Assembly: GCF_018917965.1 (NCBI RefSeq) | Contig: NZ_JAHLPP010000001.1 | Coordinates: forward strand, 558,001 to 622,000 | Length of the DNA stretch: 64,000 nucleotides | Reading direction: 5' to 3' | Source: Pseudoflavonifractor sp. MSJ-37 | GTDB taxonomy: Bacteria; Bacillota; Clostridia; Oscillospirales; Oscillospiraceae | Shown here: in pieces, positions 37,613 to 62,540 of the stretch | How the letters are laid out: each line of letters begins with the position of its first letter | How positions within the stretch are numbered: position 1 is the first letter of the stretch | The notes under the pieces: model-generated | Told to the model about the DNA's origin: nothing | Seen by the model: only the letters and a program-made list of their open reading frames with translations | Databases searched by the model: none | Made by a program: the position numbers and the translations under genes

Positions 37613-37774
37613 TCCCGCCCACGGGGGCGGGACGGGGGATGTCCTCGCCGGACGGGCGCCCTGCGCGGGCAGCGCCCCATTTCTTTTTCTGGGCGCCAGA
37701 AAAAGAAACGGGGGAAAGAAAAAGAGTGCCAGAGGGGGCGGGCCTCCCCTCTGGACACCCCCTATGCGCTCGTT
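37613..37774 (+). repeat. four-hairpin dispersed repeat, copy 1
   Basis: Hairpins in order: TCCCGCCC/GGGCGGGA (37613-37632); GGGCGC/GCGCCC (37654-37677); TTTCTTTTTCTGG/CCAGAAAAAGAAA (37680-37708, perfect 13 bp, loop GCG); CCAGAGGGG/CCCCTCTGG (37729-37754). Conserved linkers are GGGGGATGTCCTCGCCGGAC and GGGGGAAAGAAAAAGA. It starts 4 bp after the kinase-like gene. Confidence 0.85.
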
Positions 37775-37949
37775 TCCTCCCGATTTGCTCGTCCGGCCTC
37801 TATCCTCGTCGCGGATGGCTTCCAGTCACGCTCTTCGAAGCGACCGGGCCATCTTGTCTTTTGAGCCAAAAAACGTCCGTCGGGAGCGCCGGGCAAACGT
37901 GTGTATGCTGCCATGCTCGCGCGGGACCTGCCGCCTTCGAACGCCAGCC
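37775..37949. other. spacer between inverted repeat copies
   Basis: About 175 bp between two oppositely oriented repeat copies. Open frames here are chance GC-rich frames without a ribosome binding site; I see no gene or RNA. Confidence 0.5.
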
Positions 37950-38105
37950 GGGGACGCATTGGGGGGAGTCCAGAGGGGGATCGACTGTCCCCCTCTGGCA
38001 TTCTTTTTCTTTCCCCTCTTTCTTTTTCTCATGGGAGAAAAAGAAAGGGGGCTCCCGCCGAGCAGGCGGCCCGTCCGGCGAGGACATCCCCCTGCCCCGT
38101 GGGGC
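37950..38105 (-). repeat. four-hairpin dispersed repeat, copy 2 (inverted)
   Basis: Same order on the minus strand: GCCCC/GGGGC (38094-38105); CCGCC/GGCGG-type hairpin; CTTTCTTTTTCTC/GAGAAAAAGAAAG (38018-38047, perfect 13 bp); CCAGAGGGGG/CCCCCTCTGG (37970-37998, perfect 10 bp). The tail AATGCGTCCCC corresponds to TATGCGCTCGTT of copies 1 and 3. Confidence 0.85.
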
Positions 38106-38133
38106 GGCCTATCCGACCCAAAGCAGAAAGCAG

Positions 38134-38170
38134 AGCGCCCTGACCATCCAGACCGGACGGCCAGAGCGCT
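38134..38170 (-). terminator. hairpin ending dapF
   Basis: Arms AGCGCCCTGACC (38134-38145) and GGCCAGAGCGCT (38159-38170). The two mismatches become G-U pairs only in minus-strand RNA, which assigns it to dapF. Confidence 0.65.
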
Positions 38171-38174
38171 TTCC

Positions 38175-38981
38175 TCATGTCTCTATGGGGAACTCCCCCT
38201 CGAACACGGCGGCCACGGGGCCGGTCAGGGAGAGGTGCCCGTCCCGGGCCCAGCGGAGGGCGAGGGTCCCGCCGGGGAGCTCCGCCTCCACCTCGGTGTC
38301 CCGGGCGGCCCGTCCGGCCAGGACGGCGGCGGTCAGGACGGCGCAGGCCCCTGTGCCGCAGGCCGGAGTCTCCCCGCTGCCCCGCTCCCACACCCGCAGG
38401 CGGAGCCGCCGGGGGGAGAGGACCGCCGCGAACTCCACGTTGGTCCGGCGGGGGAAGCTGGGGTGCCGCTCCACGACGGGCCCAAGACGGGCCACGTCCA
38501 CCGCCGCCGGGTCGGCGCACCAGAGGACCGCGTGGGGGTTGCCCACAGACACCGGGCGCACCGTCAGGGGACCGTCCGGCCCCCGGAGCGTCCGCTCCGG
38601 ACCCCAGCGGGGGACGCCCATGTCCGCCGTGGCGGAGACGACGGCCCCGCCGGCCCGGTGGAGGACCAGAGACCGGAGCCCGGCCAGCGTCTCCACCGTC
38701 ATCCGGTCCCGGAGGACCAGCCCCCGGGCCCGGGCGAAGGCCCCGGCACACCGGAGGCCGTTGCCGCACATCTCCCCCTCGGAGCCGTCGGCGTTGAAGA
38801 TCCGCATCCGGATATCGGCAAGGGCCGACGGCCCCACCCAGATGAGTCCGTCGGCCCCGATGCCGAAGCGGCGGTCAGAGACCCGCCGGGCCAGGCCGGG
38901 CAGATCCGCCGCCATATCCTCTTTCGTGCCATCCACATACACATAGTCGTTGCCCAGGCCCTGCATCTTGGTGAAGCGCAT
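38175..38981 (-). CDS. dapF: diaminopimelate epimerase
   Basis: A 268-aa cofactor-independent epimerase giving meso-DAP for lysine and peptidoglycan. Seen: both active cysteines, C72 in MCGNGLRC and C208 in ETPACGTGA. GGGGAGGAGG precedes the ATG. It follows the ANTAR gene by 35 bp, so it may be the third gene of the glnA unit. Confidence 0.95.
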   Translation of the reverse strand: MRFTKMQGLGNDYVYVDGTKEDMAADLPGLARRVSDRRFGIGADGLIWVGPSALADIRMRIFNADGSEGEMCGNGLRCAGAFARARGLVLRDRMTVETLAGLRSLVLHRAGGAVVSATADMGVPRWGPERTLRGPDGPLTVRPVSVGNPHAVLWCADPAAVDVARLGPVVERHPSFPRRTNVEFAAVLSPRRLRLRVWERGSGETPACGTGACAVLTAAVLAGRAARDTEVEAELPGGTLALRWARDGHLSLTGPVAAVFEGEFPIET

Positions 38982-39016
38982 ATGGGACCTCCTCCCCGGA
39001 TGGCGGGAGCGGCCGG

Positions 39017-39544
39017 TCAGTCCTCCTCCAGCAGGAGGCGGGCGGTGGCGGAGAGCTTCCGTCCGCTCTCCATGCTCTTCTTCTGGAGCAGGCGGTGGGC
39101 CTGCTCCTCGCTGATGTGGGACCGCGCCATCAGGCGCTCCTTGGCCAGACGGATCAGGACCTCCTCCTCCTCGCTCCGGGCGGGACGCAGGTCCGCCTCG
39201 GCGGCCTGGAGGGCCTGCCGCACGCCGTCGATCAGGCCGCTCCGGGTCAGGGGCGTGGAGAGGCAGACCAGCCGGGGGTCGCTCCAGCAGAGGCTCAGCA
39301 GGCTCTCCGAGGCGATGAGCAGCATGCTCCGCCCGGCGGGCAGGTCGAAGAAGAGCTCCTCCGCCGTGCCGTCCGGCAGCTTGAAGCCGCAGATGACGGT
39401 GGGGATCCTCTGCTGGGCCAGGAGGGTCTTGACCTCCGCCGCCGTGTGGCAGCAGAGGGGCCGGGCCCCGCCGGCGCTCTCCAAAAGACGGCGGATCTTC
39501 TGACTGGTCGAGTCCTGTTCAAAGGCGATGACGATACGTTCCAC
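39017..39544 (-). CDS. ANTAR-domain response regulator (RNA-binding antiterminator)
   Basis: A 175-aa protein: a degenerate receiver-like domain (about 1-115; the phospho-acceptor Asp pocket is not obvious) and a C-terminal ANTAR helix bundle (about 120-175; EEEEVLIRLAKERLMARSHI with SEEQAHRLL). ANTAR proteins bind leader RNA and block terminators. GTG start at 39544. It lies downstream of glnA, whose leader contains an intrinsic terminator, so glnA is the likely target. Confidence 0.9.
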   Translation of the reverse strand: MERIVIAFEQDSTSQKIRRLLESAGGARPLCCHTAAEVKTLLAQQRIPTVICGFKLPDGTAEELFFDLPAGRSMLLIASESLLSLCWSDPRLVCLSTPLTRSGLIDGVRQALQAAEADLRPARSEEEEVLIRLAKERLMARSHISEEQAHRLLQKKSMESGRKLSATARLLLEED

Positions 39545-39679
39545 GTGCGATCAGCTCCCGCTGGTTCAGTGTATGCTCTGCTGCCGGATGGGATGCGCGG
39601 GGACGCGGCGAGTCCCGCAGTAGAGGGAGATGGTGGAAGGGGAAGGAGAAGGGGCGCGGGGGACAGAGCCCTGCTCGGC

Positions 39680-41011
39680 TCAGTACAGCGTGATGTACTT
39701 CTCCCGCTCCCAGGAGCTGACGCGGGTCTTGTACTCGTACCACTCCTTGCGCTTGCCCTCGATGTAGTAGGAGGAGACGTGGCTGCCCAGGGCATCCATG
39801 AGGAGCTGGTCCTTCTCCAGCTCCTTGATGGCGCTGGACAGGGAGTCGGGCAGGTTCTCGATGCCGTGGGCGGCGCGGGAGGCGTCGTCCATGGCGTAGA
39901 TGTTCTCAGTGATCTCGGCGGGCGGGGTCAGGCCGCGCTCGATGCCGTCCAGACCGGCGGCCAGGCAGACCGCCAGCGCCAGATAGGGGTTGCAGGAGGG
40001 ATCGGGGGAGCGGAGCTCCACCCGGGTGGACTGGCCCCGGGCGGCGGGGATGCGGATCAGGGCGGACCGGTTGGAGGCGGACCAGGCCAGATAGCAGGGG
40101 GCCTCGTAGCCGGGCACCAGACGCTTGTAGGAGTTGACCAGCGGGTTGGTGATGGCGGAGATGCCCTTCACGTGCTCCAGCACGCCGGCGATGAAGCTGT
40201 ACGCCGTCTTGGACAGGCCCCGGCGGTCGCTGGGATCGTAGAACACGTTCTTGCCGTCCTGGAAGAGGGACATATTGATGTGCATGCCGGAGCCGCACAC
40301 GCCGAAGATGGGCTTGGGCATGAAGGTGGCGTGGAGGCCGTTCTTCTGGGCCAGGATCTTGACGGCCAGCTTGAAGGTCATGATGTTGTCGGCGGCGGTG
40401 AGGGCGTCGGCGTACTTGAAGTCGATCTCGTGCTGGCCGGCGGCGTTCTCGTGGTGGCTGGCCTCGATCTCGAAGCCCATCTCCTCCAGGTTCAGGCAGA
40501 TCTCACGGCGGGTGTTCTCGCCGTGGTCCAGGGGGCCCAGGTCGAAGTAGCCGGCCTCGTCGTTGGTCTCGGTGGTGGGATTGCCCTGCTCGTCGGTCTT
40601 GAACAGGAAGAACTCGCACTCGGGGCCCACGTTGAAGGTGTCGAAGCCCATGGCCTGCATCTTGCCGATCATCCGCTTCAGCACGTTGCGGGGGTCGCCC
40701 ATGAAGGCGGAGCCGTCGGTGTTGTGGACGTCGCAGATCAGGCGGGCGGTCTTGCCGAACTGGGGCCGCCAGGGGAAGATGGTGAAGGTGTCCAGATCGG
40801 GATAGAGGCACTGGTCGGACTCGTCGATGCGGACGAAGCCCTCCACGGAGGAGCCGTCGAACATGATCTGGTTATTGACGGCCTTCTCCACCTGCGAGGC
40901 GGTGAGGGCCACGTTCTTCAGCTGGCCGAAGATGTCGGCGAACTGCATACGGACGAATTTGATGTCCTCTTCTTTGACGATGCGGATGATGTCTTCCTTG
41001 GTCAGTGCCAT
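39680..41011 (-). CDS. glnA: glutamine synthetase, type I
   Basis: A 443-aa GS-I (short alpha type, without the adenylylation-loop insertion). Seen: [21 protein letters not shown], the [14 protein letters not shown] metal/glutamate site, and [13 protein letters not shown]. It assimilates ammonia together with gdhA in this window. GAAAGGGGAACC precedes the ATG. The leader carries a terminator, and the ANTAR gene follows. Confidence 0.96.
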
Positions 41012-41159
41012 GGATCGGTTCCCCTTTCACGGATAAAGTTGGATATCGGATGCCGGACCGGACTGGAAAAGGCGCTCCTCTCCCCTCGCAGACGGGGAGA
41101 CGGAACGCCCTTGTTCGCGTACTATGCCGGCGTTTCTCTTGCGAAGTGCCTTTGTTGAA
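41012..41159 (-). promoter_or_regulatory. glnA leader with intrinsic terminator (attenuator)
   Basis: Minus strand: GGCGTTCCGTCTCCCC pairs with GGGGAGAGGAGCGCC (41071-41109) and is followed by TTTTCC, about 60 nt before the start codon. Just upstream, ACGC/GCGT can form a small alternative hairpin that uses the terminator's 5' arm. This is the layout expected of ANTAR-controlled leaders. Confidence 0.75.
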
Positions 41160-41188
41160 ATACTATCATATCCCATCGGCCTTGGCAA
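41160..41188 (-). promoter_or_regulatory. promoter of glnA
   Basis: Minus strand: TTGCCA, 17 bp, TAGTAT. It overlaps the 3' end of the phosphatase gene. Confidence 0.65.
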
Positions 41189-41801
41189 TGGGCAATTTCA
41201 CCGAACCGTCCGGGGCGCCGCCCCAGCCCCAGCTTTGGAGCCGGTCCGTGTCCAGCTCGGCCCACTGGGCGTTGCCCAGATGGAGCCCCCTGCCCATGAC
41301 GGCGAAGTCCCAGCCGGAGAGCCAGCAGACCACGCCCTTGATCACGGCGGAGTGGCTCACCACCAGCACGGTCTCCTCCGGCCCGGCGGCGATGGCTTCC
41401 AGCGCCGGGAGCGCCCGGTCCAGCATGGCACGGAAGGACTCGCCCCCCTCCGGCGCCATGCCGAGGCGGTCGGCCTGATAGCGGGCGAACTCCTCCGGCC
41501 AGCGCAGGCGGATGTCCGGCCAGCTAGTGCCCTCCCAGTGGCCGAAGGAGATCTCCTCCAGGGCGTCCACCGGCTCCGGGACCAGCCCCAGGAGGGCCCC
41601 GGCGGTCTGGGCGGTCTGGAAGGCCCGGCGCTTGGGGCTGGCGCAGAGCCGCTCCGGCCGCTCTCCGGCGGCGATGAGGCGGCGGGCCAGGGCGGCGGCC
41701 TGTGCCTGCCCGGCGGCGTTGAGGGGGGTGTCGCTCTGTCCCTGGATGCGCCCGGCGGCGTTCCAGTCGGTCTGCCCGTGGCGGGCCAGCAGGATCCTCA
41801 T
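41166..41801 (-). CDS. histidine phosphatase family protein (phosphoglycerate-mutase-like)
   Basis: A 211-aa branch-1 histidine phosphatase. Seen: LARHGQTDWN with catalytic H8, R58, E83, and VVSHSAVIKG with H150. Relatives include alpha-ribazole phosphatase (CobC) and broad-specificity phosphatases; no cobalamin genes are nearby, so the substrate is open. It follows the AEC transporter gene by 14 bp on the same strand. GAGGAGGG precedes the ATG. Confidence 0.88.
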   Translation of the reverse strand: MRILLARHGQTDWNAAGRIQGQSDTPLNAAGQAQAAALARRLIAAGERPERLCASPKRRAFQTAQTAGALLGLVPEPVDALEEISFGHWEGTSWPDIRLRWPEEFARYQADRLGMAPEGGESFRAMLDRALPALEAIAAGPEETVLVVSHSAVIKGVVCWLSGWDFAVMGRGLHLGNAQWAELDTDRLQSWGWGGAPDGSVKLPIAKADGI

Positions 41802-41815
41802 AGCGCGCCCTCCTC

Positions 41816-42766
41816 TCAGGCCAGATATCCCGCGGAGCGCAGGAGGAAGAGCCAGAAGGTCAGGGTCAGGGCAGAGAGCAGGGTGGTCAGCACGATGACG
41901 CTGGAGGTCAGCACCCCGTCGTTGCCCATGCGCTCGGCCATGACGTAGCTGGTGGGGGTGGTGGCGCTGCCCAGCAGGATGACGAGGCAGGCCAGAGAGG
42001 CGTCCCGGAAGCCCAGGGCCACCGCCGCCGGCAGGAACACGGCGGGGAGGACCACCAGCTTGACGAGGCTGGCGGCGAAGGTGGGGCCCAGCTTGGAGAG
42101 GGCCTTGCGCCCCTCGAACCCGGCGCCGATGCAGATCAGCGCCTGAGGCGTGGCCAGAGAGGACACGGAGGCGATGGTCTTGTTGAGGATGGTGGGGAAC
42201 TGGATGCCCAGCAGGGAGACGACGGAGCCCAGAGCGATGCCGATCAGCAGGGGGTTGGTGACGATGCCCTTCACGGTGGAGGCGATGGAGGGGCCGGAGC
42301 GGTCCGTCCGCGTCCCCTCCACACTGAGGACCAGCACGGCGTAGATGTTGAAGAGGGGCACGCTGCCGACGATCATCATGGGGGCGGGGCCCGCGTCGCC
42401 GTAGAGGTTGACCATCAGGGCCACGCCCATGACCGCCACACTGCACCGGTAGCTGGCCTGGACGAAGGCGCCCACCATGCTCTTGTCCTTCAGGAAACGC
42501 CTGGCAAAGAGCCAGATGGCGAAGAAGGCGATGGTGGTGGAGAGGGCGCAGAAGCCCGCCAGCTTCCCGTCGAAGCCGGTACGCAGGTCGCTCTCCGCCA
42601 TGTCCTTGAAGAGCAGGAGGGGGAGGATCACGTTGAAGTTGAACTTGTTGGACACGGCCACGAACTCGTTGTTGAGCAGCCCGATCTGCTTCAGCACATA
42701 GCCGAGGGCGATGACCAGGAACACGGGGAGCGTGCCGTTCAAACTGAACATCAGGCTTTCCATCAT
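41816..42766 (-). CDS. AEC family transporter
   Basis: A 316-aa auxin-efflux-carrier/malonate-permease-type membrane protein with about ten helices in two halves. Seen: NKFNFNVILPLLLFKDM in the first half and SATTPTSYVMAERMGND in the second, typical of bacterial AEC members. Substrates in the family are mostly organic acids; none can be assigned. Two adjacent ATGs start the gene. First gene of a two-gene unit. Confidence 0.88.
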   Translation of the reverse strand: MMESLMFSLNGTLPVFLVIALGYVLKQIGLLNNEFVAVSNKFNFNVILPLLLFKDMAESDLRTGFDGKLAGFCALSTTIAFFAIWLFARRFLKDKSMVGAFVQASYRCSVAVMGVALMVNLYGDAGPAPMMIVGSVPLFNIYAVLVLSVEGTRTDRSGPSIASTVKGIVTNPLLIGIALGSVVSLLGIQFPTILNKTIASVSSLATPQALICIGAGFEGRKALSKLGPTFAASLVKLVVLPAVFLPAAVALGFRDASLACLVILLGSATTPTSYVMAERMGNDGVLTSSVIVLTTLLSALTLTFWLFLLRSAGYLA

Positions 42767-42801
42767 AAGGGGCTCACGCTTTCTTTCGTTGGATGTCCTC
42801 T

Positions 42802-42831
42802 ATTTTAGGGCAGAGAGGGGAGAGAAGTCAA
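42802..42831 (-). promoter_or_regulatory. promoter of the AEC transporter unit
   Basis: Minus strand: TTGACT, 18 bp, TAAAAT. Confidence 0.65.
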
Positions 42832-42879
42832 GCGGAGCGCGGACCGTGGGACGTGGGGGGGCGGCCCCCGAAGGATCTG

Positions 42880-43104
42880 AAAAATTTCTCCCTTTTTACA
42901 AAAGTGTGTCTGATGCATACTAACTCATAATTATACGAAACACCACACTTTTATTCATTTTCTATTCATTTCCGGCCAATGGGTATTCATTTTTGCTCTA
43001 AGTTATCATGCAATTTATTAGAATGGAATTTTTGAAAGAGCCAGCACCTTGAATGGGCTGACTCTTTCAATGTCACTTGTAGTTGACAAACTGGAATTTT
43101 CAAA
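42880..43104. other. AT-rich flank of an accessory patch
   Basis: Base composition drops abruptly from GC-rich to AT-rich at about 42880. Apart from the hairpin at 43034, I see no gene in this stretch. Confidence 0.6.
43034..43068 (-). terminator. possible terminator of the S51 peptidase gene
   Basis: Arms GAAAGAGCCAGC and GCTGACTCTTTC; the single mismatch becomes G-U in minus-strand RNA. No U-tract follows. Confidence 0.5.
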
Positions 43105-43707
43105 TTAGTCTTTGCAAATGACCTTTGGATCTTCACCATCAATTACAATTCCCTGACGGTTGTTGATCGGGCATAGATTCAAATCCGAAAACTCAGTCAT
43201 TATTTTCTCGGTAACTTTCTTAAATGGTGCTGTAAGATAATGCGGAAGAACATAGAAATCGATCAAATCGATCCCTGCATCATCTTCTTGTGAGTAGTCC
43301 TCCGGCTTTTCATCCATTTGCTCGATATATTGGATGTTTGGAGCGCATATAATTGCGCCTGCCGACTCGCCGATCATCAATTTTCCATTTGCCAATTCCT
43401 TTTTCAGCAGTCCATCAGTTCCCGTTTTACGGAGCTGGTCCATAAGAAAGAAAGAATTTCCGCCGGTAAAATATATTACATCTGCTTCTTCAAAAACAGA
43501 CTGTATCGTTGAATAAGCCTCCGTTGAAATATCAATTTCAGTTATGATCGCTCCCAACTTTTTGAATAATTTTCGAGCCGAGCCGACATAACCGGTGTAG
43601 CCTTCACGCAGTGAAGCTGTTGGAATGAATGCGACTTTCTTATTTTCGATTTCTTCCTTTATCAGACTTCCTACACTTGAAAAGTGCGAACATAAAAATA
43701 ATTTCAT
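43105..43707 (-). CDS. peptidase S51 (dipeptidase E-like) family protein
   Basis: A 200-aa protein. Seen: VIYFTGGNSFFLM and nucleophile elbow LMIGESAGAII, with a later DFYVLPHY, matching S51 Ser-His-Glu peptidases (aspartyl dipeptidase or cyanophycinase relatives). The codons are markedly AT-rich against a GC-rich background, so the gene was probably acquired. AAAGGAGAATATTG precedes the start, which I place only to within about one codon. Confidence 0.85.
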   Translation of the reverse strand: MKLFLCSHFSSVGSLIKEEIENKKVAFIPTASLREGYTGYVGSARKLFKKLGAIITEIDISTEAYSTIQSVFEEADVIYFTGGNSFFLMDQLRKTGTDGLLKKELANGKLMIGESAGAIICAPNIQYIEQMDEKPEDYSQEDDAGIDLIDFYVLPHYLTAPFKKVTEKIMTEFSDLNLCPINNRQGIVIDGEDPKVICKD

Positions 43708-43925
43708 CAATATTCTCCTTTATAAATTTCGATTTGTATAACAGTAGTCTAACACACGTTGTTTAAAAATACTACAGCCGATCCAATGTCTGTAATTTGC
43801 CCTAAAATTTCAAAATATTTTTGCGGAAAGATGTACGTCCGCGTCCTACAAAGGGCCTCTGGGAGACCACCGGTGAGAGGGCCGTCCCGGAGAGACGGGC
43901 CTCGATCCGATCACAGGAGGTCCTT

Positions 43926-44732
43926 ATGAGATACTACCGAAAAGACACGCCCTTACCTTCCTTCCTGCCCCTGCCCCGGTTCTTATTAGGGCTGGAGCTG
44001 TCCGTGAACGCCAAGCTGCTGTACGGACTGCTCCTGAACCGGACCACCCTCTCCCAGCGGTCGGACGAGTGGGTGGACCCGTCGGGACGGGTGTTCCTCG
44101 TCTATCCGATCCGGGACATAGCCCGGGACCTGGGCCGGAGCGAGCGGACGGTGAACAGCGCGTTATCCGAGCTGGAACGGGCGGAGCTCCTCACCCGGAC
44201 CAGAAGGGGGTGGAGCCAGCCCAGCCGGATCTATCTCCAGATGCCGGATGACACCAAGTCCTCTGCGGGACTGGATGCGCAGGATATGGTACATCCAACG
44301 CGCAAGATCTGCGCCATGGATACGCAGGAGACTGCACGTCCGGATGCGCAGTTTTTGCCTCCTAGTAATACTGAGAGAAAACAGACTGAGGAGAAGCAGA
44401 CTGAGGGAGAGAGAAGGGACGCGCCCGCCCATCGGCTGGGGGAGTATCGAAACGTCAGGCTCACGGAGGAAGAGCTGGAGCGTTTACAGACCGACTTCCC
44501 GGACCGGTATCGGGGGCACATCGAACGCCTTTCTGTGTACATGGCCGTCAGCGGGAAACGCTATGCCGACCACGCCGCCGTCTTGCGCAAGTGGCTGGCG
44601 GAGGATGCCTCCGGGTCCCAAACGGATGGATGCGCAGCCGGATACCGGTGCGCGGGGACCGGGAGAGGCCGCTTCCGCACGAGCCGTGACTACGACTACG
44701 ACGAGGTCTACGAGGAGGGGGAATGCCTGTGA
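43926..44732 (+). CDS. replication initiator protein A (RepA_N/DnaD-like)
   Basis: A 268-aa protein of the type found on conjugative transposons and plasmids of Firmicutes. Seen: N-terminal RepA-like winged-helix region (YYRKDTPLPSFLPLPRFLL, then LGRSERTVNSALSELERAEL), a variable linker, and a C-terminal helical segment (HIERLSVYMAVSGKRY then AAVLRKWLAED). The ATG at 43926 follows ACAGGAGG. It overlaps the helicase-loader gene by 10 nt. Confidence 0.82.
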   Translation: MRYYRKDTPLPSFLPLPRFLLGLELSVNAKLLYGLLLNRTTLSQRSDEWVDPSGRVFLVYPIRDIARDLGRSERTVNSALSELERAELLTRTRRGWSQPSRIYLQMPDDTKSSAGLDAQDMVHPTRKICAMDTQETARPDAQFLPPSNTERKQTEEKQTEGERRDAPAHRLGEYRNVRLTEEELERLQTDFPDRYRGHIERLSVYMAVSGKRYADHAAVLRKWLAEDASGSQTDGCAAGYRCAGTGRGRFRTSRDYDYDEVYEEGECL

Positions 44733-45577: not shown

Positions 45578-45595
45578 GAGCGGGGCGTGTGGGGC

Positions 45596-45625
45596 TTGCC
45601 AAACCGGGGGCGGGCAGTATATAAT
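45596..45625 (+). promoter_or_regulatory. promoter of glnS
   Basis: TTGCCA, 18 bp, TATAAT. The -35 begins 18 bp after the helicase-loader stop. Confidence 0.7.
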
Positions 45626-54678: not shown

Positions 54679-54720
54679 ACCGCGCGTTCGCTCCTTTCCG
54701 GCCTGATGGATCGGGCGGGG

Positions 54721-55005: not shown

Positions 55006-55111
55006 GAGATCCTCCTCCATCGTTGCAGGATATGAGCCGCCGGCGGGCGGCGTCACTCTCAGTATATGTGGGCGGACCGGGAAGGTGCGCCGGAAAGGGA
55101 AGAGTCACGGT

Positions 55112-55582
55112 ATGAAGATCTTGGTGTTTTCCGATTCCCACGGGAACGTGGAGCATATGGCGGAGGCGGTGGAGCGGGACCGGCCGGACCGCATCTTCCA
55201 TCTGGGCGACGTGGAGCCCGACGCCCGGGCCCTGCGGCGGCGGTTCCCGGACATCCCCATGGACTGCGTGCCCGGCAACTGCGACGGCCGCCGGCCCGAC
55301 CTGGAAGAAGAAAAGCTGGTGGAGGCGGAGGGCCGCCGCATCCTCCTGATGCACGGCCACACCCGGAACGTGAAGCTGGGCATGGGCCAGGCGGTCTGGG
55401 CCGCCCGGGAGGCGGAGGCGGACGTGCTCCTCTTCGGCCACACCCACGAGGCCTTCTGCACCTATGAGCAGGGCCTGTGGATCATGAACCCCGGCACCAT
55501 CCGGGGGAGCTGGGCCGGAGCCACCTACGGCGTCATCACCATCCAGGGCGGCGATCTGGTGTGCTACGGGCTCAAGGTGTGA
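55112..55582 (+). CDS. YfcE/MJ0936-type metallophosphoesterase
   Basis: A 156-aa phosphodiesterase. Seen: the metal-binding motifs SDSHGN near the N-terminus, HLGDVE, GNCD, MHGH, and FGHTH. Family members hydrolyse small phosphodiesters in vitro; the natural substrate is unknown. The start at 55112 follows AAAGGGAAGAG. It is divergent from the three-gene unit. Confidence 0.92.
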   Translation: MKILVFSDSHGNVEHMAEAVERDRPDRIFHLGDVEPDARALRRRFPDIPMDCVPGNCDGRRPDLEEEKLVEAEGRRILLMHGHTRNVKLGMGQAVWAAREAEADVLLFGHTHEAFCTYEQGLWIMNPGTIRGSWAGATYGVITIQGGDLVCYGLKV

Positions 55583-55647
55583 CGGGCCCTTTTGGGCATG
55601 GGCCGGAGAGGATGGCCATGGATCGTGAAAAAAGTAACAAAAAGTGC

Positions 55648-55676
55648 TTGCCAAATCGAGCGATAGATGGTAGAAT
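55648..55676 (+). promoter_or_regulatory. promoter of the TetR gene
   Basis: TTGCCA, 17 bp, TAGAAT. The predicted start near 55683 excludes the upstream ATG at 55667 region as a translation start. Confidence 0.7.
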
Positions 55677-55723
55677 CGTTACTGAACTTAGAGCCTAAAA
55701 AAAAAACCAGAGGTGTGAATGCG

Positions 55724-56365
55724 TTGAGTAAGAAACAGGCATTGACCGAATTCCACAGAAGCTCGATCCTGGCGGCGGCGAAGGAGCTGTTCGCGGAGCA
55801 CGGGATCGAAAAGACGACCATGGATGACATCGCCCGGAAGTCGGAATACAGCAAGGCCACCCTGTACGTCTATTTCCAGAGCAAGGAAGAGATCGTGAAC
55901 GCGATCCTGCTGAGCAACATGAAGCTCCTGCAGAAGAAGATCCAGACCGCGATCGACACCAACGCCAACTGGTTCCACGCCTACGACGCGATCTGCGCCG
56001 CCATCTTCCACTTTTACAGCGAGAACCCCGCCGCCTACGAGGTCGTGGGGAGCGACGGCATCATCGATCTGAACGGGGCCAAGCTGGACGAGACCATCCA
56101 GGAGATCGTCAAGGAGAACGACGCCACCGACAAGCTCCTGGAGGACTTCCTCCGGAAGGGCGCGGCCGAGGGCATCGTCCGCATCGGCCTGTCTCCGGCG
56201 GAGATCGTGGTGCAGTTCTGGGCCATGCTCTCCGGTCTGGTGCAGATGGCCGACAGCAAGAGCAACTATCTGGCCCACTGCCTGAAGATCGAGCGGGAGG
56301 AGTTCCTGCATCACGGCGCCCGGATGCTCCTGGACGCCATCACCAAGGGACGTACCGTGGAGTAA
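55724..56365 (+). CDS. TetR/AcrR family transcriptional regulator
   Basis: A 213-aa repressor. Seen: an N-terminal helix-turn-helix (ILAAAKELFAEHGIEKTTMD, IARKSEYSKATLYVYFQSKE) and a helical ligand-binding domain. The TTG at 55724 has AGAGGTG 8 nt upstream and lies after the predicted transcription start. No transporter lies beside it; the divergent or downstream YitT gene is on the other strand, so its target is unknown. Confidence 0.88.
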   Translation: MSKKQALTEFHRSSILAAAKELFAEHGIEKTTMDDIARKSEYSKATLYVYFQSKEEIVNAILLSNMKLLQKKIQTAIDTNANWFHAYDAICAAIFHFYSENPAAYEVVGSDGIIDLNGAKLDETIQEIVKENDATDKLLEDFLRKGAAEGIVRIGLSPAEIVVQFWAMLSGLVQMADSKSNYLAHCLKIEREEFLHHGARMLLDAITKGRTVE

Positions 56366-56383
56366 CAGAAGATCGGAATGAAA

Positions 56384-56420
56384 AGCGAGCCTGCCGCCAT
56401 CCTTTGGCGGCAGGCTCGCT
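56384..56420. terminator. 37-bp terminator, first of two identical copies
   Basis: A perfect 16-bp stem AGCGAGCCTGCCGCCA and complement, loop TCCTT. Its U-tract (TTTTCATT) is on the minus strand, so it would stop transcripts coming from yitT. Confidence 0.8.
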
Positions 56421-56654
56421 CAGACTGTCAAAAAAGTGATTTCTCACGTTGAACGATGCAAGAGCCTCGCAGAGTTCCGTCACCCGCAGGTGACGGAATC
56501 AGATGTAAGGCGTTTTTTCTGAGGACATGTGCCTCAGAAAAAACTCTTCTCAGGCCGCAACCATGCGAGCGCAGCGAGTGCGCGCGGCGGCCTGCATCTC
56601 ATCGAAGAAATGCTTGCATTTCTGAGAAGCGTGTCGAACTTTTTCGACACGCTG
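56421..56654. repeat. array of further hairpins between tetR and yitT
   Basis: Perfect inverted repeats in order: TTCCGTCACC/GGTGACGGAA (56475-56498); GTTTTTTCTGAGG and complement (56512-56544); CAGGCCGC/GCGGCCTG (56551-56594); AGAAATG/CATTTCT (56606-56623); AGCGTGTCGAA/TTCGACACGCT (56628-56653). No coding potential was recognised. Confidence 0.8.
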
Positions 56655-56691
56655 AGCGAGCCTGCCGCCATCCTTTGGCGGCAGGCTCGCT
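56655..56691. terminator. 37-bp terminator, second identical copy
   Basis: Identical over all 37 bp to the copy at 56384. Its U-rich tail (TTCGTTCGTTC) is on the plus strand, so it would stop transcripts coming from tetR. Confidence 0.8.
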
Positions 56692-56712
56692 TTCGTTCGT
56701 TCGGTCCAAAGC

Positions 56713-57588
56713 TCACTCGATCGGCCGGATATAGAAGTTCCCGAGGACCTCGTGGGAGTCCATGACGTTGACGAAGGTGCCGGGCATATGCTGGTCGATG
56801 TAGAGGCTGATCTTGCGGATATCGCTGTCCGAGAGGACAGTGTAGACCACATAGCGGTGCTTCTTGGTGTAGGCGCCCTCGCCGGGCCAGACGGTGGCGG
56901 AGTGGTTGGCGATCCGGATCAGGGCGTCGGTGAGCTGCTCCGGGTCGTCGGTGACGATGAAGAGGGTCTTTTTCTTATAGCGCTTGTAGCCCGCGTTGAT
57001 GACCTGCGTATAGCAGAACTGGTAGATGATGGAGTAGAGGGCCTTGTCCATGCCGAACTGCCAGCCGTAGATCAGGATGATGGCGGCGCTGAAGTAGAGC
57101 ATATAGTTGAAGGAATTAGCGTTCTTGAACTTGGCGGCCATGGACATGGCGATGAAGTCGGTGCCGCCGCTGCTGGCTCCGCTGTTCAGCACCAGTACGA
57201 TGCCCACGCCGCCGAAGATCGCGCCGAACACCGCGATCAGCAAAGGGTCGTCCACGATCTCGTACTTGGGCAGGACGTCCACCAGCACCGAGGACAGGAA
57301 GATGCTGAAGAAGGACAGGACCGTGAAGCGCCGGCCCACATAGTGGAAGGCGATGAAGGCGGGGATCAGGTTGAAGCCCACGTTGAGCACCGAGAAGGGC
57401 AGCTCGATGTGGAACCAGCGCTGGAACAGGGACTGGATCAGGATCGACAGGCCGGAGAAGCCGCCGGGGACCAGATCGCCCGCAGTGATGAAGGTGTTCA
57501 TGTTCAGGGCGAAGATGACGCTGCCCGCCAGGAGCATGGCCAGCTTCCCGGCCTGACGGACCAGCTCGTGCTGTTTCAGTTTCATCAT
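56713..57588 (-). CDS. YitT family membrane protein (DUF2179)
   Basis: A 291-aa protein with five to six membrane helices (about 12-200; ALNMNTFITAGDLVPGGFSG near the N-terminus, GASSGGTDF in the middle) and a cytoplasmic C-terminal DUF2179 domain (HRYVVYTVLSDSDIRKISLY onward). Function of the family is unknown. Two adjacent ATGs; GGAGG precedes them. It follows recQ by 14 bp on the same strand. Confidence 0.92.
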   Translation of the reverse strand: MMKLKQHELVRQAGKLAMLLAGSVIFALNMNTFITAGDLVPGGFSGLSILIQSLFQRWFHIELPFSVLNVGFNLIPAFIAFHYVGRRFTVLSFFSIFLSSVLVDVLPKYEIVDDPLLIAVFGAIFGGVGIVLVLNSGASSGGTDFIAMSMAAKFKNANSFNYMLYFSAAIILIYGWQFGMDKALYSIIYQFCYTQVINAGYKRYKKKTLFIVTDDPEQLTDALIRIANHSATVWPGEGAYTKKHRYVVYTVLSDSDIRKISLYIDQHMPGTFVNVMDSHEVLGNFYIRPIE

Positions 57589-57602
57589 AAAGACCTCCGT
57601 CG

Positions 57603-59423
57603 TTATTCTTGGATCGCAGCCAGGAACTGCTTGCCGTACTGGGCCAGCTTGTGGCTGCCCACGCCGGGGACCCGCTCCATCTCCGACAGGGTGGCGGGGC
57701 GGCGGGCGGCCATCTCCCGCAGGGTCTTGTCGGTGAAGATGACGTAGGCGGGCAGGCTCTTCTTGCGGGCCAGCTCCGCTCGGAGGGCCCGCAGGCGCTG
57801 GAACAGGGCCTCGTCCGCCGGGTCGCCCAGATGGACCGGGGCGGGCGGGGCCTTGGGGGCGCTCCTGGGCCGCTGGGGCCTCATGCGCATGGTGAAGCCG
57901 GACGGGGCGGCCCGGAGCTCCTGGGCCCGGGGGCCCTCCACGATGAGGGGGTAGTCCCCCTCGGTGACGGCCAGACAGCCCTCCTCCACCAGATGGCGGA
58001 TCATGTCCTTCACCTGCGGCGGCCGGCGGTGGGCCAGGGCCCCGAAGGACCGGCACCGGTCCAGGTCCCAGCGGAGGGTCCGCTCGTTCTCCTTCCCGCA
58101 GAGCAGATCGGCGAGGGTGGCCGCGCCGAAGCGGCCCCGGCACTCCTCCACGGCCCCCAGGATGGCCTGGGCCTCTTTGGTGATGTCCACGTCCTGCCAC
58201 CCGGCGTCGCAGTTGGAGCAGTGGCCGCAGGGGCCGGGGGGCGGCGTCTCCCCGAAGTAGCGGAGGATGAAGTGCCGCAGACAGTCCGTGGTAGTGGAGT
58301 AGTAGGTCATGGTGCGCAGACGGTCCAGCTGCCGCTGGCGGAGGGCGGAGACGGTCTCATCGTCCACGTCGGCGGGGGCCTGGGACTGCTCGATCAGGAA
58401 GCGGCCCGTCACCACGTCCCGGCCGCTGTACAGCAGGACGCAGTCGGCGGGACTGCCGTCCCGGCCCGCCCGGCCCGCCTCCTGATAGTAGCCCTCCAGG
58501 TCCAGCGGCATATTGTAGTGGACCACATAGCGCACGTTGGACTTGTCGATGCCCATGCCGAAGGCGTTGGTGGCCACCATGACGGTGGACTCGTCGGCGG
58601 CGAAGGCGTCCTGGGCGGCCAGACGCTCCTCCGGCGTCAGGCCCGCGTGGTAGCGGGCGGCGGCGATGCCGTGTTCCTGCAAAAAGGCGCAGACCTCCTC
58701 CACGTTCTTCCGGGTGGAGCAGTAGACCACGCCGCTCTCATCCCGCCGCCGCAGGAGGATGGAGAGGAGCTCGTCCTTCTTGTTCTGGGGGCGGCGCACC
58801 TCGAAGTACAGGTTCTTCCGGTCGAAGCCGGTGGTGGTGAGCACCGGGTCCCGGAGCTGGAGCTTTTGGAGGATGTCCTCCCGGACCTCCGGCGTGGCGG
58901 TGGCGGTGAAGGCCCCCAGCGGCGGCCGGGTGGGGAGGGAGTCCAAAAACGCCGGGATCTTCAGGTAGCTGGGCCGGAAATCCGTGCCCCACTGGGAGAC
59001 GCAGTGGGCCTCGTCCACCGCCACCAGCGAGATCTGAGCTTTTTGGGCGAAACGGAGGAAGCCGGGGCTCTCCAGCCGCTCCGGGGCCACATAGATGATC
59101 TTATATCGGCCCTGCCAGGCCCGCTCCAGAGCCAGAGCGTACTGCCGTTCCGTCAGGGAGCGGTTCAGATAGGCCGCCGGGATGCCCGCCTGCACCAGGC
59201 TCCCCACCTGGTCCTTCATCAGGGAGATCAGAGGCGAGATCACCAGCGCCACCCCGGGCAGCATGATGGACGGGAGCTGGAAGCACAGGGACTTGCCCGC
59301 GCCGGTGGGCATGATGGACAGCACGTCCTTCCCGTCCAGCAGAGCGTCCACCGCCCGCTCCTGTCCCGGCAGGAAGCCGCTGTATCCGAAATAGGACTGG
59401 AGCATCTCCGATTTATAGGACAT
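57603..59423 (-). CDS. recQ: ATP-dependent DNA helicase RecQ
   Basis: A 606-aa helicase. Seen: Walker A MPTGAGKSLCFQLP, DEAH box in VDEAHCVSQWG, helicase motif VI QEAGRAGRDG, an RQC zinc site (CGHCSNCD), and a C-terminal HRDC domain ending PGVGSHKLAQYG. The ATG at 59423 follows GGAGGTCC; an ATG at 59441 lies upstream of that site. Likely co-transcribed with the YitT gene. Confidence 0.95.
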   Translation of the reverse strand: MSYKSEMLQSYFGYSGFLPGQERAVDALLDGKDVLSIMPTGAGKSLCFQLPSIMLPGVALVISPLISLMKDQVGSLVQAGIPAAYLNRSLTERQYALALERAWQGRYKIIYVAPERLESPGFLRFAQKAQISLVAVDEAHCVSQWGTDFRPSYLKIPAFLDSLPTRPPLGAFTATATPEVREDILQKLQLRDPVLTTTGFDRKNLYFEVRRPQNKKDELLSILLRRRDESGVVYCSTRKNVEEVCAFLQEHGIAAARYHAGLTPEERLAAQDAFAADESTVMVATNAFGMGIDKSNVRYVVHYNMPLDLEGYYQEAGRAGRDGSPADCVLLYSGRDVVTGRFLIEQSQAPADVDDETVSALRQRQLDRLRTMTYYSTTTDCLRHFILRYFGETPPPGPCGHCSNCDAGWQDVDITKEAQAILGAVEECRGRFGAATLADLLCGKENERTLRWDLDRCRSFGALAHRRPPQVKDMIRHLVEEGCLAVTEGDYPLIVEGPRAQELRAAPSGFTMRMRPQRPRSAPKAPPAPVHLGDPADEALFQRLRALRAELARKKSLPAYVIFTDKTLREMAARRPATLSEMERVPGVGSHKLAQYGKQFLAAIQE

Positions 59424-59524
59424 AGCAGGACCTCCTGTCATCGAGATCGGTCGAGAGTGGGATGGATCGTATCGTTAGGGGACGGCATCAGGACCGGATC
59501 GGAGCGCAGAGACAGACGTCCCGC

Positions 59525-60208
59525 TCAACGATCCCTCGGGTCCGGATCTCCGTCCAGGGCGGTGAAGAGGTCGTAGAAGGGCCGCAGGAAGGAATAGCCC
59601 TCCACCAGCTTGTCGGCCAGGTCATGAGAATAGAGGATGGGCCCCAGCTTCTCCCGGTGCTCCAGGACGGGGCTCTTCCGGTCATACCAGGGCTGGAGGA
59701 GGGGAGAGGGCGCCGTGCCCTTGGGGCGCTTGTAGGTCTCGCCGCCCAGCGTGAACTCCTCCTGCCGCTCCAGCCGCCGGGCCAGCCGTTCGAAGTCCTT
59801 GGGCGCCCGGTCGATCCGGGCCCGGAGCCTTGCCATGGTCAGAGGCGTGGCGGACCAGTAGCCCAGCCCATAGGACCAGCCCTCCGGAGCCAGCTCGAAC
59901 CAGAACACCGGTCGGGCGGAGAAGCGGTCCTCCCCGGGCCGCTCCAGCGAGAGCCACAGATGGTCCTTGTAGGGCCCCCGCCCGTAGAGCCGACGGGCGT
60001 CCCGGTAGATCCGCGAGACCTTCCAGCACAGGCCGGGGACGGCGTGCTCCGCCTGGAAGCGGTCATAGACCTCGTTGGCCAGCTCCTTCATGGGCTGGTA
60101 GAAGTGGGTGAGATACTCAGCCTTATGGGCCTCGAACCAGGGGCGCTCGTTGTTGAAGCGGATGCCCCACATGAAGTCCACAGTGGCGTTGGAAAAGCCT
60201 TGGAACAC
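59525..60208 (-). CDS. DUF2461 family protein
   Basis: A 227-aa protein. Seen: NNERPWFEAHKAEYLTHFYQP near the N-terminus, RIYRDARR, GPYKDHLWL and a GYWSAT segment, the standard DUF2461 signature. Function unknown. The start is GTG at 60208 with GAAGGAGGAT upstream. Confidence 0.9.
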   Translation of the reverse strand: MFQGFSNATVDFMWGIRFNNERPWFEAHKAEYLTHFYQPMKELANEVYDRFQAEHAVPGLCWKVSRIYRDARRLYGRGPYKDHLWLSLERPGEDRFSARPVFWFELAPEGWSYGLGYWSATPLTMARLRARIDRAPKDFERLARRLERQEEFTLGGETYKRPKGTAPSPLLQPWYDRKSPVLEHREKLGPILYSHDLADKLVEGYSFLRPFYDLFTALDGDPDPRDR

Positions 60209-60239
60209 GGTGATATCCTCCTTCGGGGAAACGGGATCG

Positions 60240-60275
60240 GGAAAAGGGAGACGGCCCCCGGAGGGACCGTCTCGA
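60240..60275 (-). terminator. terminator of the VanW gene
   Basis: Stem GAGACGG/CCGTCTC; on the minus strand it is followed by CCTTTTCC. Confidence 0.6.
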
Positions 60276-60318
60276 AGATGCGGACGGACGATAGGGATCC
60301 AAGCCCTCCCATCAGACG

Positions 60319-62214
60319 TTATTGTGCCTCCGGGGGCAGGACCGGCGTATCCGGGGCCGTGGAGGCCGCCGGAGCGGGCGCCGGTGTGGCAGTCGGGGTA
60401 GGAGCGGGAGCGGCTGTCGGCGTTGGGGCCGGCGCGTGGGTGGGCGCGGCCGTGGGATCGGCCGTAGGATGCGTGGAGGGTGCCGGCGTGGCGGTGGGCT
60501 GAGCGGAGGCGCTGGCGGCGGGGGAAGGCGTGGCCGCCGTGGGGGTCTTGGTCATGAGACCGGTGGAGGTGTCGATGCCCAGCCGGCCGGCGTCCGCGGG
60601 ATTGTAGAAGTATACTGCGTTCCGGGCGCTGAATTTGTCGGTGTGGATCACGGTGTCACTGACGGTCTTGCCGCTGGCGTCCACCAGACGCTGATGGACC
60701 TCCACCACCTTGCCGGTGTAGGCGGTGCGGGTGGAGTCCTTCTGAGGCTTGGAGCCCTGCGGCACGGAGCTGTTGGGCTCGTAGACCGTCTTGGGGGCGG
60801 TGGTGCCCACCACGACGGAGTAGGGCTCACCATGGATGCCGGTGGTGTTGGTGCCATAGATGGTCACGTTGCACCAGCGCTTTCCGCCGCTCTGGGTGAG
60901 AGAGGCGGCGATCTTCACCGGGTAATCCGTGTCGTTCTGGAACTTGAAGTCCAGACTGTCGCCGTAGACGGTGGCATCCATGCCGGAGGGCATATAGCCC
61001 ACGTCGTACTTGTGCTTGGTGCGCTCCACGGTCTTGAGGTCCGCCTTGAGGGTGGTGTAGTAGATCGTAGAGGAGAGCTGGCATATGCCGCCGGCCCAGG
61101 TGTCCTGAGTGGTGCCGCTCACATAGGCGCCGGCCTTCCGGAAGCCGCCGGCCTGAGAGTAGGGCCCCACGGTGGCGTTGTAGGAGAAGGTCTCGCCGGG
61201 GAGGAGGATCGTGCCGTTGACCCGCTCGCAGGCCAAGCCCACGTTGTGCCAGCGGTTGGAGCCGCCGGCGGTCTTAGTGGAGGACTGGCCCAGTACGTCC
61301 TTGAAGAGGTTCGCGTTGAGCTTGGCGGTGGTGATCTCCGGCTCGGTCAGGGACAGGGACAGGGAGCAGGTCTCGCCCTCCGCGGTCTGGGCGAGAGCGG
61401 CCTTGGCGTCCGCGGGGTCGAAGCTGACGCCGGTGACGGAGGAGACCACCTGCTTGGTCTTTTTGTCCAGATAGGCGTCGGCGGGCTCGGTGTGGACCTG
61501 CTGATACATGGCGTCATAGTCCGGGTCCGGTGGGGCCTCCGTGATGACGGGCACGTCGAAGGAGGCGGCAGAGGTCTCGCCCTTGCGGAGCATCTCGTCG
61601 AACTCGCCGATCAACGTATCCTCCAGGGCGGCCACGTCGATGGCCTGACCGGTGGTGCCCTTGGTGAGCTTCAGTGTGGAGCCCTCCACGGACCAGGTGG
61701 TCTCCACCATGGGATCGGTGATGTGCGCCTCCGCCTCGGTGACGGCAGAGGGGGTCTGGGGGAAGGAGATGGCGGCATCGCCGTCCGTCCCCTGTCCGAA
61801 GAGGGCGGCCAGATAGCGGACGCCCGCCCCGATGCCCTTGGCCCCATGCCCGGCGGCATCCTTGAGCGCGGCGTCCGCGTCGGCGGAGACCTCCGCGCCA
61901 GTGACCGTGAAGGTCTGCCCGCCGCAGGTGAAGCCGGCGGAGAGCTGGGCCAGCTTGCCGGGGAGCTCCCGCTCCAGCTTCTGCGCGGCTTCGTCCTGTG
62001 TCAGTCCGCCCACATCCACGCCGCTGATGGTGGTGTTGGGGAGGAGCTTCCCGCTGGACGAGACCGCGTAGGAGAAGCCGCCGTATCCGGCGGCCGCCGC
62101 GATCAGGACCACCGCCGCGATGATGGGGGCCTTGCCGCCCTTCCGGGCATTCTTCTCCTGGCGCTTCCCGCGCTCCGAAGAGGGAGCGGTCCGTTTGCCT
62201 TGCTGTCGTTCCAT
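60319..62214 (-). CDS. VanW family protein with YoaR-like domains
   Basis: A 631-aa exported wall-associated protein. Seen: a basic N-terminus and one membrane helix (about 28-52), repeats of the YoaR/peptidoglycan-binding-4 type (ISGVDVGGLTQDEAAQKLE and later), the VanW core (NVGLACERVNGTILLPGETF, then GGICQLSSTIYYTTLKADL), a G5-like segment, and a Pro/Thr/Ala tail. VanW is named from glycopeptide-resistance clusters, but family members are general in Firmicutes. Confidence 0.9.
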   Translation of the reverse strand: MERQQGKRTAPSSERGKRQEKNARKGGKAPIIAAVVLIAAAAGYGGFSYAVSSSGKLLPNTTISGVDVGGLTQDEAAQKLERELPGKLAQLSAGFTCGGQTFTVTGAEVSADADAALKDAAGHGAKGIGAGVRYLAALFGQGTDGDAAISFPQTPSAVTEAEAHITDPMVETTWSVEGSTLKLTKGTTGQAIDVAALEDTLIGEFDEMLRKGETSAASFDVPVITEAPPDPDYDAMYQQVHTEPADAYLDKKTKQVVSSVTGVSFDPADAKAALAQTAEGETCSLSLSLTEPEITTAKLNANLFKDVLGQSSTKTAGGSNRWHNVGLACERVNGTILLPGETFSYNATVGPYSQAGGFRKAGAYVSGTTQDTWAGGICQLSSTIYYTTLKADLKTVERTKHKYDVGYMPSGMDATVYGDSLDFKFQNDTDYPVKIAASLTQSGGKRWCNVTIYGTNTTGIHGEPYSVVVGTTAPKTVYEPNSSVPQGSKPQKDSTRTAYTGKVVEVHQRLVDASGKTVSDTVIHTDKFSARNAVYFYNPADAGRLGIDTSTGLMTKTPTAATPSPAASASAQPTATPAPSTHPTADPTAAPTHAPAPTPTAAPAPTPTATPAPAPAASTAPDTPVLPPEAQ

Positions 62215-62260
62215 GTAAGATCAACTCCAAATATGAGGTAAAAACGAAACACTTCTCTAT

Positions 62261-62289
62261 ATTATAGGAGGCTGAGAAGGAAAATGCAA
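62261..62289 (-). promoter_or_regulatory. promoter of the VanW gene
   Basis: Minus strand: TTGCAT, 17 bp, TATAAT. Confidence 0.75.
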
Positions 62290-62328
62290 TTACAGAACGG
62301 TAACATCGGAGCGTCCGGATAGGATATC

Positions 62329-62358
62329 GCCCCACAGGGCGGGGTGATGTGTCCTCGC
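62329..62358 (+). repeat. partial copy of the four-hairpin repeat
   Basis: GCCCCACAGGGC followed by GGGGTGATGTGTCCTCGC, resembling the left end of the full copies; the rest is missing. A full copy begins 25 bp further on. Confidence 0.45.
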
Positions 62359-62382
62359 TTGCGCAGCCGTTGGCTACTTTTT

Positions 62383-62540
62383 CCCGCCGCGGGCGGGGAC
62401 GGGGGATGCGCTCGCCGCGCGGGCCGCCTGCTCGGCGGGAGCCCCTTTTCTTTTTCTCACGTGAGAAAAAGAAAAGGGGGAAAGAAAAAGAACGCCAGAG
62501 GGGGCGGACCTCCCCTCTGGACACCCCCTATGCGCTCGTT
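62383..62540 (+). repeat. four-hairpin dispersed repeat, copy 3
   Basis: Hairpins in order: CCCGCC/GGCGGG (62383-62397); CCGCC/GGCGG (62424-62438 region); CCCCTTTTCTTTTTCTCAC and its complement (62442-62479, a 38-bp perfect palindrome); CCAGAGGGG/CCCCTCTGG (62495-62520). The tail is TATGCGCTCGTT, as in copy 1. It lies between divergent genes, not at a gene end. Confidence 0.85.

Follow-up and report, generated by a model that had tools for sequence, protein, structure and literature searches.

A dispersed, usually heterodimeric inverted-repeat element with covarying hairpins and opposed terminator signals in Pseudoflavonifractor and related bacteria

In the window, a 64-kb stretch of DNA from Pseudoflavonifractor sp. 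MSJ-37 (genome G000), the convergent genes at 37021-37608 (+) and 38175-38981 (-), which we take to be cytidylate-kinase-like and dapF-like, respectively, are separated by a complete element at 37613-38105 that consists of a B-type half on the + strand, an interior and an A-type half on the - strand. A second, truncated element comprises a lone B-type half at 62383-62540 (+), for which no partner half was found, and an apparent remnant of the interior beside it at 62541-62700 (+), recognized by eye against other copies. The first-pass annotation had listed three copies of a repeat unit of ~160 bp with four successive hairpins. The copies lie at the claimed places and in the claimed order, as confirmed by matches to a covariance model (R1) at 37638-37677 (+), 38049-38088 (-) and 62405-62444 (+) with E-values of 2e-12 to 2.3e-11, the training set of R1 having been drawn from this genus only and consisting in part of these window copies. 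However, although the copies are real, the unit is larger, being a pair of inverted halves that had been missed: 37613-37774 (+) and 37950-38105 (-) are mirrored halves of one element of ~490 bp. Its first pair of inverted arms (37629-37690 and 38036-38097) is 84% complementary and its second pair (37698-37738 and 37989-38029) is 93% complementary, with ~190 bp of interior separating the two halves. Similarly, the order of the hairpins holds, but a half has five of them when the outer tip is counted, and what had been read as a linker (TGTCCTCGCC) actually comprises the loop and 5΄ arm of an additional hairpin, hp1 (TGTCC-TCGCC-GGACG), which is among the best covarying hairpins.

In the B-type half, the outer tip hairpin (TCCCGCCC-ACGG-GGGCGGGA; 37613-37632, +) begins five bases past the TGA stop codon and is followed on the same strand by hp1 (37640-37654), hp2 (GCCC-TGCGC-GGGC; 37658-37670), hp3, a long pyrimidine/purine hairpin (37675-37713), and hp4 (CCAGAGGGG...CCCCTCTGG; 37729-37754). 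The hp3 arm TTTCTTTTTCT doubles as an inward U-tract behind hp2, and hp4 together with the CTCTTTTT behind it is scored as an intrinsic terminator when read in the outward direction (- strand). The interior (37755-37961) shows 85-88% identity to other G000 copies from about 37830 on, whereas the matches listed for other species are confined to the halves. The A-type half (37962-38105, -) contains hp4΄ (37970-37998), which is terminator-like outward on the + strand, hp3΄ (38014-38051), hp2΄ (38056-38068), hp1΄ (38072-38086) and, by eye, a short tip hairpin at about 38094-38105 (-). The fold of a 504-nt element had a z value of -12.9 relative to dinucleotide shuffles (0/100 as good), much of which derives from the long inverted repeat; for a single half, z was -3.2 (1/200 shuffles as good). 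Elsewhere in the window, Rfam placed a 6S RNA (RF00013, 72.2 bits) at 31774-31972 (-) and two tRNA genes at 24231-24315 (+) and 26632-26720 (-).

When one copy was compared with the 2.58-Mb G000 genome using BLAST, 28 matches were obtained, self-matches and fragments counted, and these resolve to nine paired elements, the lone half and smaller derivatives (C5:174731, C2:234335 and C2:142242). From the outside in, a half contains the tip hairpin, hp1 (consensus TGNNC-TCGCC-GNNCG), hp2 (NNCC-TRCNC-GGNN), hp3 (a TTTCTTTT/AAAAGAAA hairpin), an AAAGAAA linker, hp4 with a stem of the CCAGAGGGG, GGAGAGGGG or a similar type, and ACTCCCC or a similar sequence. The hp1 loop was TCGCC in 150 of 152 halves, and the hp2 loop matched TRCNC in 135 of 152. 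For the tip hairpin, 72% of 150 halves have a stem of at least 5 bp no more than 40 nt outward of hp1, compared with 19.6% in dinucleotide shuffles and 24% in windows 50-90 nt upstream, and most tip sequences occur only once.

We examined a genus set of 10 genomes (G000-G009, G000 included), among which G008 is Flavonifractor sp. An92, G006 is Ca. F. merdigallinarum, G009 is Ca. F. intestinipullorum, G004 is Pseudoflavonifractor sp. 524-17 and G002 is Clostridiales SUG478; completeness was 99.98% for G000, 99% for G008 and 81% for G006, many contigs of which end in an element. By motif typing, an A half was combined with a B half in 32 of 41 elements of G008 (nine not typable at one or both ends), 19 of 23 of G006 (four not typable), 8 of 9 of G000 (the remaining one being B+B), 2 of 4 of G002 (two not typable) and 1 of 2 of G009 (the other not typable), and both G005 elements were untypable by motif. 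The sequences show an element built of two unlike inverted halves (A and B) around a short interior, whose length is 113-271 bp on average. The left and right ends had an hp1 state in common in 13 of 67 elements, with 18.3 expected, so that no excess was found. The 41 paired spans of G008 each measure 264-361 bp, and in a scan of 41 G008 loci, only three halves had no complete partner: two lie at contig ends (L274 and L297) and one belongs to a truncated element (L275). Lone halves in other genomes occur in G000 and at L320 (G004), L322 (G005), L324 (G007) and L128 (G009).

Several G000 elements harbor, inside the hp1 loop, a second hairpin module of ~60 bp (CTTGCGCAGCCGTTGGCGGC...), for example at about 1043-1113 of L003 and in other elements on C2 and C6, and a start of this module lies near 62357-62376 of the window. 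A further GC hairpin of the GGCGTCGGGGACGCC type occurs in the interior (L007, about 1390-1430) and also beside the truncated window copy (about 62620-62650). The possibility of a gene conserved in the interior was weakened by the range of the longest closed ORF per element, which was 5-111 aa in 41 G008 elements, 29-91 aa in 23 of G006, 79-130 aa in nine of G000 and 42-59 aa in four of G002, although the longer G000 ORFs may still represent such a gene. An internal promoter was likewise set aside, with one promoter-like site in 41 G008 interiors and none in the 23 G006, nine G000 and four G002 interiors.

To evaluate covariation, we used an alignment (A1) of 47 halves (46 distinct) from G000, G002, G005, G006, G008 and G009 and counted 18 pairs from hp1, hp2 and hp4, with shuffled and slid alignments as controls; hp3 was excluded from the pair counts because A1 is out of register there between A and B halves. 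Pairing was found in 99.5% of 825 cells, in agreement with the earlier claim that it is kept despite changed sequence, and the covariation test proposed with that claim was positive: cells changed on both sides numbered 112, compared with 35.4 ± 4.2 in shuffled and 1-15 in slid alignments. In a 40-column subset, the corresponding values were 63, 21.2 ± 3.1 and at most 8. Further pair types showed no excess over shuffles (481/500 as high), and in the subset neither further pair types nor pairs with a change on both sides (328/500 as high) exceeded shuffles. Because the halves are related by descent and probably by recombination, the cells counted here are not independent events. Overall, the sequences show base pairing that is kept while the stem sequence changes.

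Across hp1 pairs 2-5 and hp2 of the 152 halves, G-U or mismatched cells were rare (29/1216), with 10 non-Watson-Crick cells among 608 for hp1 pairs 2-5 and 19 among 608 for hp2, although pair 4-12 was CG in 73 halves, GC in 78 and mismatched in one, and the outermost hp1 pair was mostly T-G (124/152). The small number of G-U or mismatched intermediates indicates DNA-level constraint or repair as much as RNA selection. The stem states would fit whole-hairpin exchange between copies or template switching and, equally, strong two-strand selection.

We next consider the terminator-like signals, for which we required at least 5 T in 8, a threshold of our own setting, as was the hp4 stem of at least 7 bp that defined the 148 halves included. 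A T-tract was present outward of hp4 in 144/148 halves and inward of hp4 in 0/148, and was present inward of hp2 in 145/148. Halves carry the feature of intrinsic terminators, a GC stem followed by a U-tract, in both senses, inward at hp2 and outward at hp4. Both hp4 hairpins of the complete window element score as outward-pointing intrinsic terminators, and three terminator sites were predicted in 3 kb of the window, compared with 1.2 ± 1.0 in shuffles.

Gene context was determined with a home-made gene caller based on codon usage. In G008, 42 elements (one truncated) lie in 21 convergent, 20 tandem and 1 divergent gaps, with two more at contig edges, whereas the other gaps of >50 bp in the same loci comprise 5 convergent, 45 tandem and 20 divergent ones (Fisher tests, P = 3.5e-7 for convergent and 3.3e-4 for divergent gaps). 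The convergent, tandem and divergent counts were 4, 5 and 1 in G000, compared with 7, 35 and 7 in the background, the single divergent case being the lone half; 3, 1 and 0 in G006, with three elements at edges; and 1, 3 and 0 in G002. The convergent bias was significant when the four genomes were pooled (Fisher test, P = 3.1e-9). For 62 gene 3΄ ends facing G008 elements, the distance to the core was within 40 nt in 36 cases, 41-100 nt in 20 and farther in 6. From the hairpins, T-tracts and placement, we infer that the elements may act as back-to-back bidirectional, or double, terminators. However, the 3΄-end bias would also result from the purging of harmful insertions, which counts against our explanation.

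A search with the window element using BLAST gave matches in seven of nine congeners (G002 and G004-G009), mostly as inverted pairs, so that the further copies in relatives that the first-pass annotation had called for do exist; in G003, the hp4 region was matched by three short stretches of 42-53 bp. With the whole element as query, no match was obtained in 30 genomes that belong to other genera within the family and order. Counts of the exact pattern, which covers hp1 and hp2 and can score an intact element twice, were 9 in G000, 10 in G002, 9 in G004, 129 in G006, 2 in G007, 65 in G008, 5 in G009 and 0 in G001, G003 and G005, the last of which nevertheless has diverged elements; the reversed-pattern control gave 0 in all 15 genomes of this count. 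A slightly stricter pattern of hp1 and hp2 was not found in 397 other genomes of the phylum. In one exact-pattern scan of genome contigs, 92 stretches matched. Outside the genus, counts of the pattern were 54 in Clostridiaceae strain 9 (G439), 12 in Hm464_bin22, 6 in SUG277 and 3 in the Alphaproteobacteria MAG Dive100_bin1.47 (G436). Many matches in G439 (L310-L314) are repeated directly in tandem, with a period of 34, 58 or 91 bp, rather than as inverted pairs, and the 91-bp period contains the tip hairpin, hp1, hp2 and hp4 in element order.

For the order of G436, the bare pattern is near background, since 8 of 297 genomes matched, compared with 6 for the reversed control. Full pairing of hp1, in one case with a G-U pair, was found at seven sites in four genomes (three in G436, two in G451 and one each in G536 and G568), whereas hp1 was not fully paired at L349, L350 and L351; at L345, hp2 and four of the five hp1 pairs can form (R1 E = 0.0021), and a second end was not found. 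In three alphaproteobacterial elements from three genomes, R1 detected both inverted ends ~130 bp apart, with E-values of 1.7e-6 and 3.4e-4 (L352), 1.5e-6 and 0.0016 (L347) and 2.5e-4 and 0.0061 (L241); the second ends lay outside the pattern by which these loci had been picked. By eye, the two ends of these compact elements are likewise unlike, hp2 being of the CCTGCGCGG type at one end and of the GCT...AGC type at the other, and the elements contain a GC hairpin with ACCCC behind it. At the other four alphaproteobacterial sites, there is either a single half or a partner that is degraded. A Streptomyces locus (L154, E = 0.025) was taken as chance. A phage or plasmid origin was weakened by the lack of exact-pattern matches in viral contigs and of BLAST matches in phages and plasmids. 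No family of Rfam (release 15) reached its gathering score, in line with the earlier statement that no known RNA class was recognized, and ten weak matches to microRNA and snoRNA families, far below the gathering scores, were discarded. We found no description of the element in searches of an open-licence library, and absence there does not mean absence from print.

Comparison among congeners points to sites with and without the element. The element behind the kinase gene of the window was absent in 9/9 congeners, in eight of which an ordinary terminator hairpin can be seen by eye behind the kinase stop codon, but the downstream neighbor differs too; in G002, one weak profile match lies at the terminator behind this gene (L061; E = 0.0022, model 26-100) and was unconfirmed by R1. 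At the L045 site, the element is present in G008 and G006, and in G002, G005, G007 and G009 both flanking genes remain, the flank matches being 73-101 bp apart; the four empty stretches each contain, by eye, one ordinary terminator hairpin and gave no R1 match. A target-site duplication could not be read, as the flanks of empty and filled sites are too diverged. A G006 element lies beside at least one orthologous flank at five of six G008 sites checked (L045, L042, both of L278 and one of two of L279); this suggests that the sites are old and common to both species, rather than frequent new insertion. At the L042 site, the G006 element is opposite in orientation to its G008 counterpart, and a gene-like stretch lies to its left (L121 1-415; G006:C211).

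Mean identity between elements was 0.88 within G006, 0.88 within G008 and 0.84 within G000, compared with 0.80 between G006 and G008. In a midpoint-rooted tree, the nine G000 elements (support 0.996), the four G002 elements and the two G005 elements were each monophyletic, and 23 G006 elements fell in a clade of 61 together with 37 from G008 and one from G009 (support 0.254). Every small mixed G006/G008 clade includes L046, whose high cross-species identity was set aside because it is partial. Between G006 and G008, same-site elements are 80% (L045) and 77% (L042) identical, and both are closer to their nearest copies in their own genome (88-93%) than to the same-site counterpart; the fourth-nearest copy of L045 is a G006 copy at 87%. 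By these identities, copies are more alike within than between species. At both two-element loci, the element-bounded G008 segment is inverted relative to its neighbor in G006, and one G006 inversion junction is without an element; the alignments show inversions between the two species with ends at elements. The inversions were seen in L278, L279 and L355 against G006 contigs C149 and C176.

On balance, we lean toward an inverted-repeat element of the REPIN/MITE-like kind that is non-autonomous and usually heterodimeric, consists of short hairpins in a chain and would serve as a double terminator. Under this explanation, an enzyme acting in trans would copy or insert the whole A-interior-B unit, and might read hp1 and hp2 as structures with fixed loops. 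The inserted unit would constitute back-to-back bidirectional terminators, and for that reason, we propose, might be tolerated or kept at 3΄ ends. Copies may also recombine with one another, and such exchange, combined with repair templated by the hairpins, could keep stems perfectly paired and copies alike within species. The first-pass annotation had suggested function or mobility as a folded nucleic acid; covariation supports the folded nucleic acid, whereas we infer mobility indirectly, from the elements' absence at orthologous sites in some relatives and their expansion in some species.

The elements share with MITEs terminal inverted repeats, dispersal and the lack of a transposase gene, and with REPINs the inverted doublet of palindromic units. 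If they were DNA-transposon MITEs in the strict sense, that is, deletion derivatives of an insertion sequence whose DDE transposase recognizes the outer inverted ends (mostly TG...CA), then the long inverted ends, the internally deleted derivatives C5:174731 and C2:234335 and the similar ends in alphaproteobacterial copies would be accounted for. However, no longer, gene-bearing or transposase-bearing copy occurred among the elements read, no target duplication could be read, and a DDE enzyme has no need of internal covarying hairpins with fixed loops, so that we regard this origin as unlikely. The terminator anatomy, the placement behind stop codons and the sites common to G006 and G008 would also be expected of a resident regulatory module, either a bidirectional terminator or a 3΄ UTR RNA, that is inherited vertically and selected rather than mobile. 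Such a module is quite improbable in our judgment, given that exact-pattern counts vary from 0 to 129 between congeners, interiors are common to copies within a species, sites are empty in relatives with an ordinary terminator in place and another arrangement, direct tandem arrays, occurs in G439.

Membership in REPINs proper, moved by a Y1 (RAYT) transposase, is weakened by a search with PF01797 (Y1 transposases), which gave no match in G000, G006, G007, G008 and G009, including the two genomes richest in copies (G006 and G008), and yet matched pattern-free G001 and G003 and 5 of 14 control genomes, including E. coli. The element-bearing G002, G004 and G005 do have one match each, and an intergenic, structured inverted doublet with compensatory stem changes resembles REPINs as portrayed in PMC3116915, a preference for heterodimers being known for REPs (PMC3733652). 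Nevertheless, instead of units of 20-40 bp with an unpaired GTAG tag, we observed halves of ~150 nt with five hairpins in which the outer TGNNC is paired in hp1, and this membership seems very improbable to us. We give equally little credence to covariation that is mainly mutational, in which template switching in hairpins and gene conversion rewrite both arms with no selection for folding. Stems in a few perfect states with the scarce intermediates described above, and the ability of template switching to create and maintain stems (PMC8794818), are consistent with it, but mutation alone explains neither the fixed loops, such as the nearly invariant TCGCC of hp1, nor the module order that persists in distant genomes.

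Returning to the element that we favor, it is best described as a real, structured, dispersed family, a variant of REPIN/MITE-like repeats that is new, usually heterodimeric and multi-hairpin and has opposed terminator signals built in. We entertain, more tentatively and with the odds against it, a mobile hairpin-chain class absent from the literature searched, which would span Clostridia and Alphaproteobacteria, typically with unlike inverted halves, fixed loops (hp1 TCGCC; hp2 mostly TRCNC) and interchangeable stems, be moved by an enzyme that reads single-strand hairpins and is distinct from Y1/RAYT, and act as a portable bidirectional terminator. Because the stems of the family switch state with few mismatched intermediates, selection can be tested directly against hairpin-templated mutation and gene conversion as the source of compensatory changes. 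The family might also account for assembly breaks and inversions in gut bacteria of the Flavonifractor type, and for the terminators of many of their genes.

Among known systems, REP doublets, REPINs and BIMEs are the closest in form, being intergenic, high-copy and hairpin-containing, often heterodimeric, with the inverted doublet as one unit and compensatory stem changes (PMC3116915 and PMC3733652). The present elements differ from these GTAG- and RAYT-associated repeats in the length of the half and its five hairpins, in ends that are mostly TG...CA and paired rather than marked by an unpaired tag, and in that no Y1 transposase was found in the congeners richest in copies. Whereas GTAG-type REP-like repeats go together with Y1 transposases, the hairpin-chain family has a doublet form without a detectable Y1 gene in the congeners richest in copies, which points to a different route by which structured DNA repeats spread or are maintained. 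CGTC-tagged REPs also form inverted dimers; according to PMC3733652, they are mainly alphaproteobacterial, have no dedicated transposase known, and show 8-9 bp stems behind an unpaired tag, often changed to TGTC, and mostly a CCA tail. The elements described here depart from that definition, in that TGTCC is the 5΄ arm of a 5-bp stem and more hairpins follow. Bacterial MITEs, including pneumococcal BOX, RUP and SPRITE, are similar in their short inverted ends, the modularity of BOX, the terminator-like character of SPRITE and over-representation between convergent genes (PMC3049150 and PMC10969869); they differ in sequence, and the present family has a covarying hairpin chain with fixed loops, two unlike halves and no target duplication that could be read. 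Finally, intrinsic bidirectional terminators likewise have a GC stem and U-tract in both directions behind genes, whereas here the signals belong to a dispersed, repeated unit of ~350-600 bp with an interior, in which the inward and outward signals are separate.
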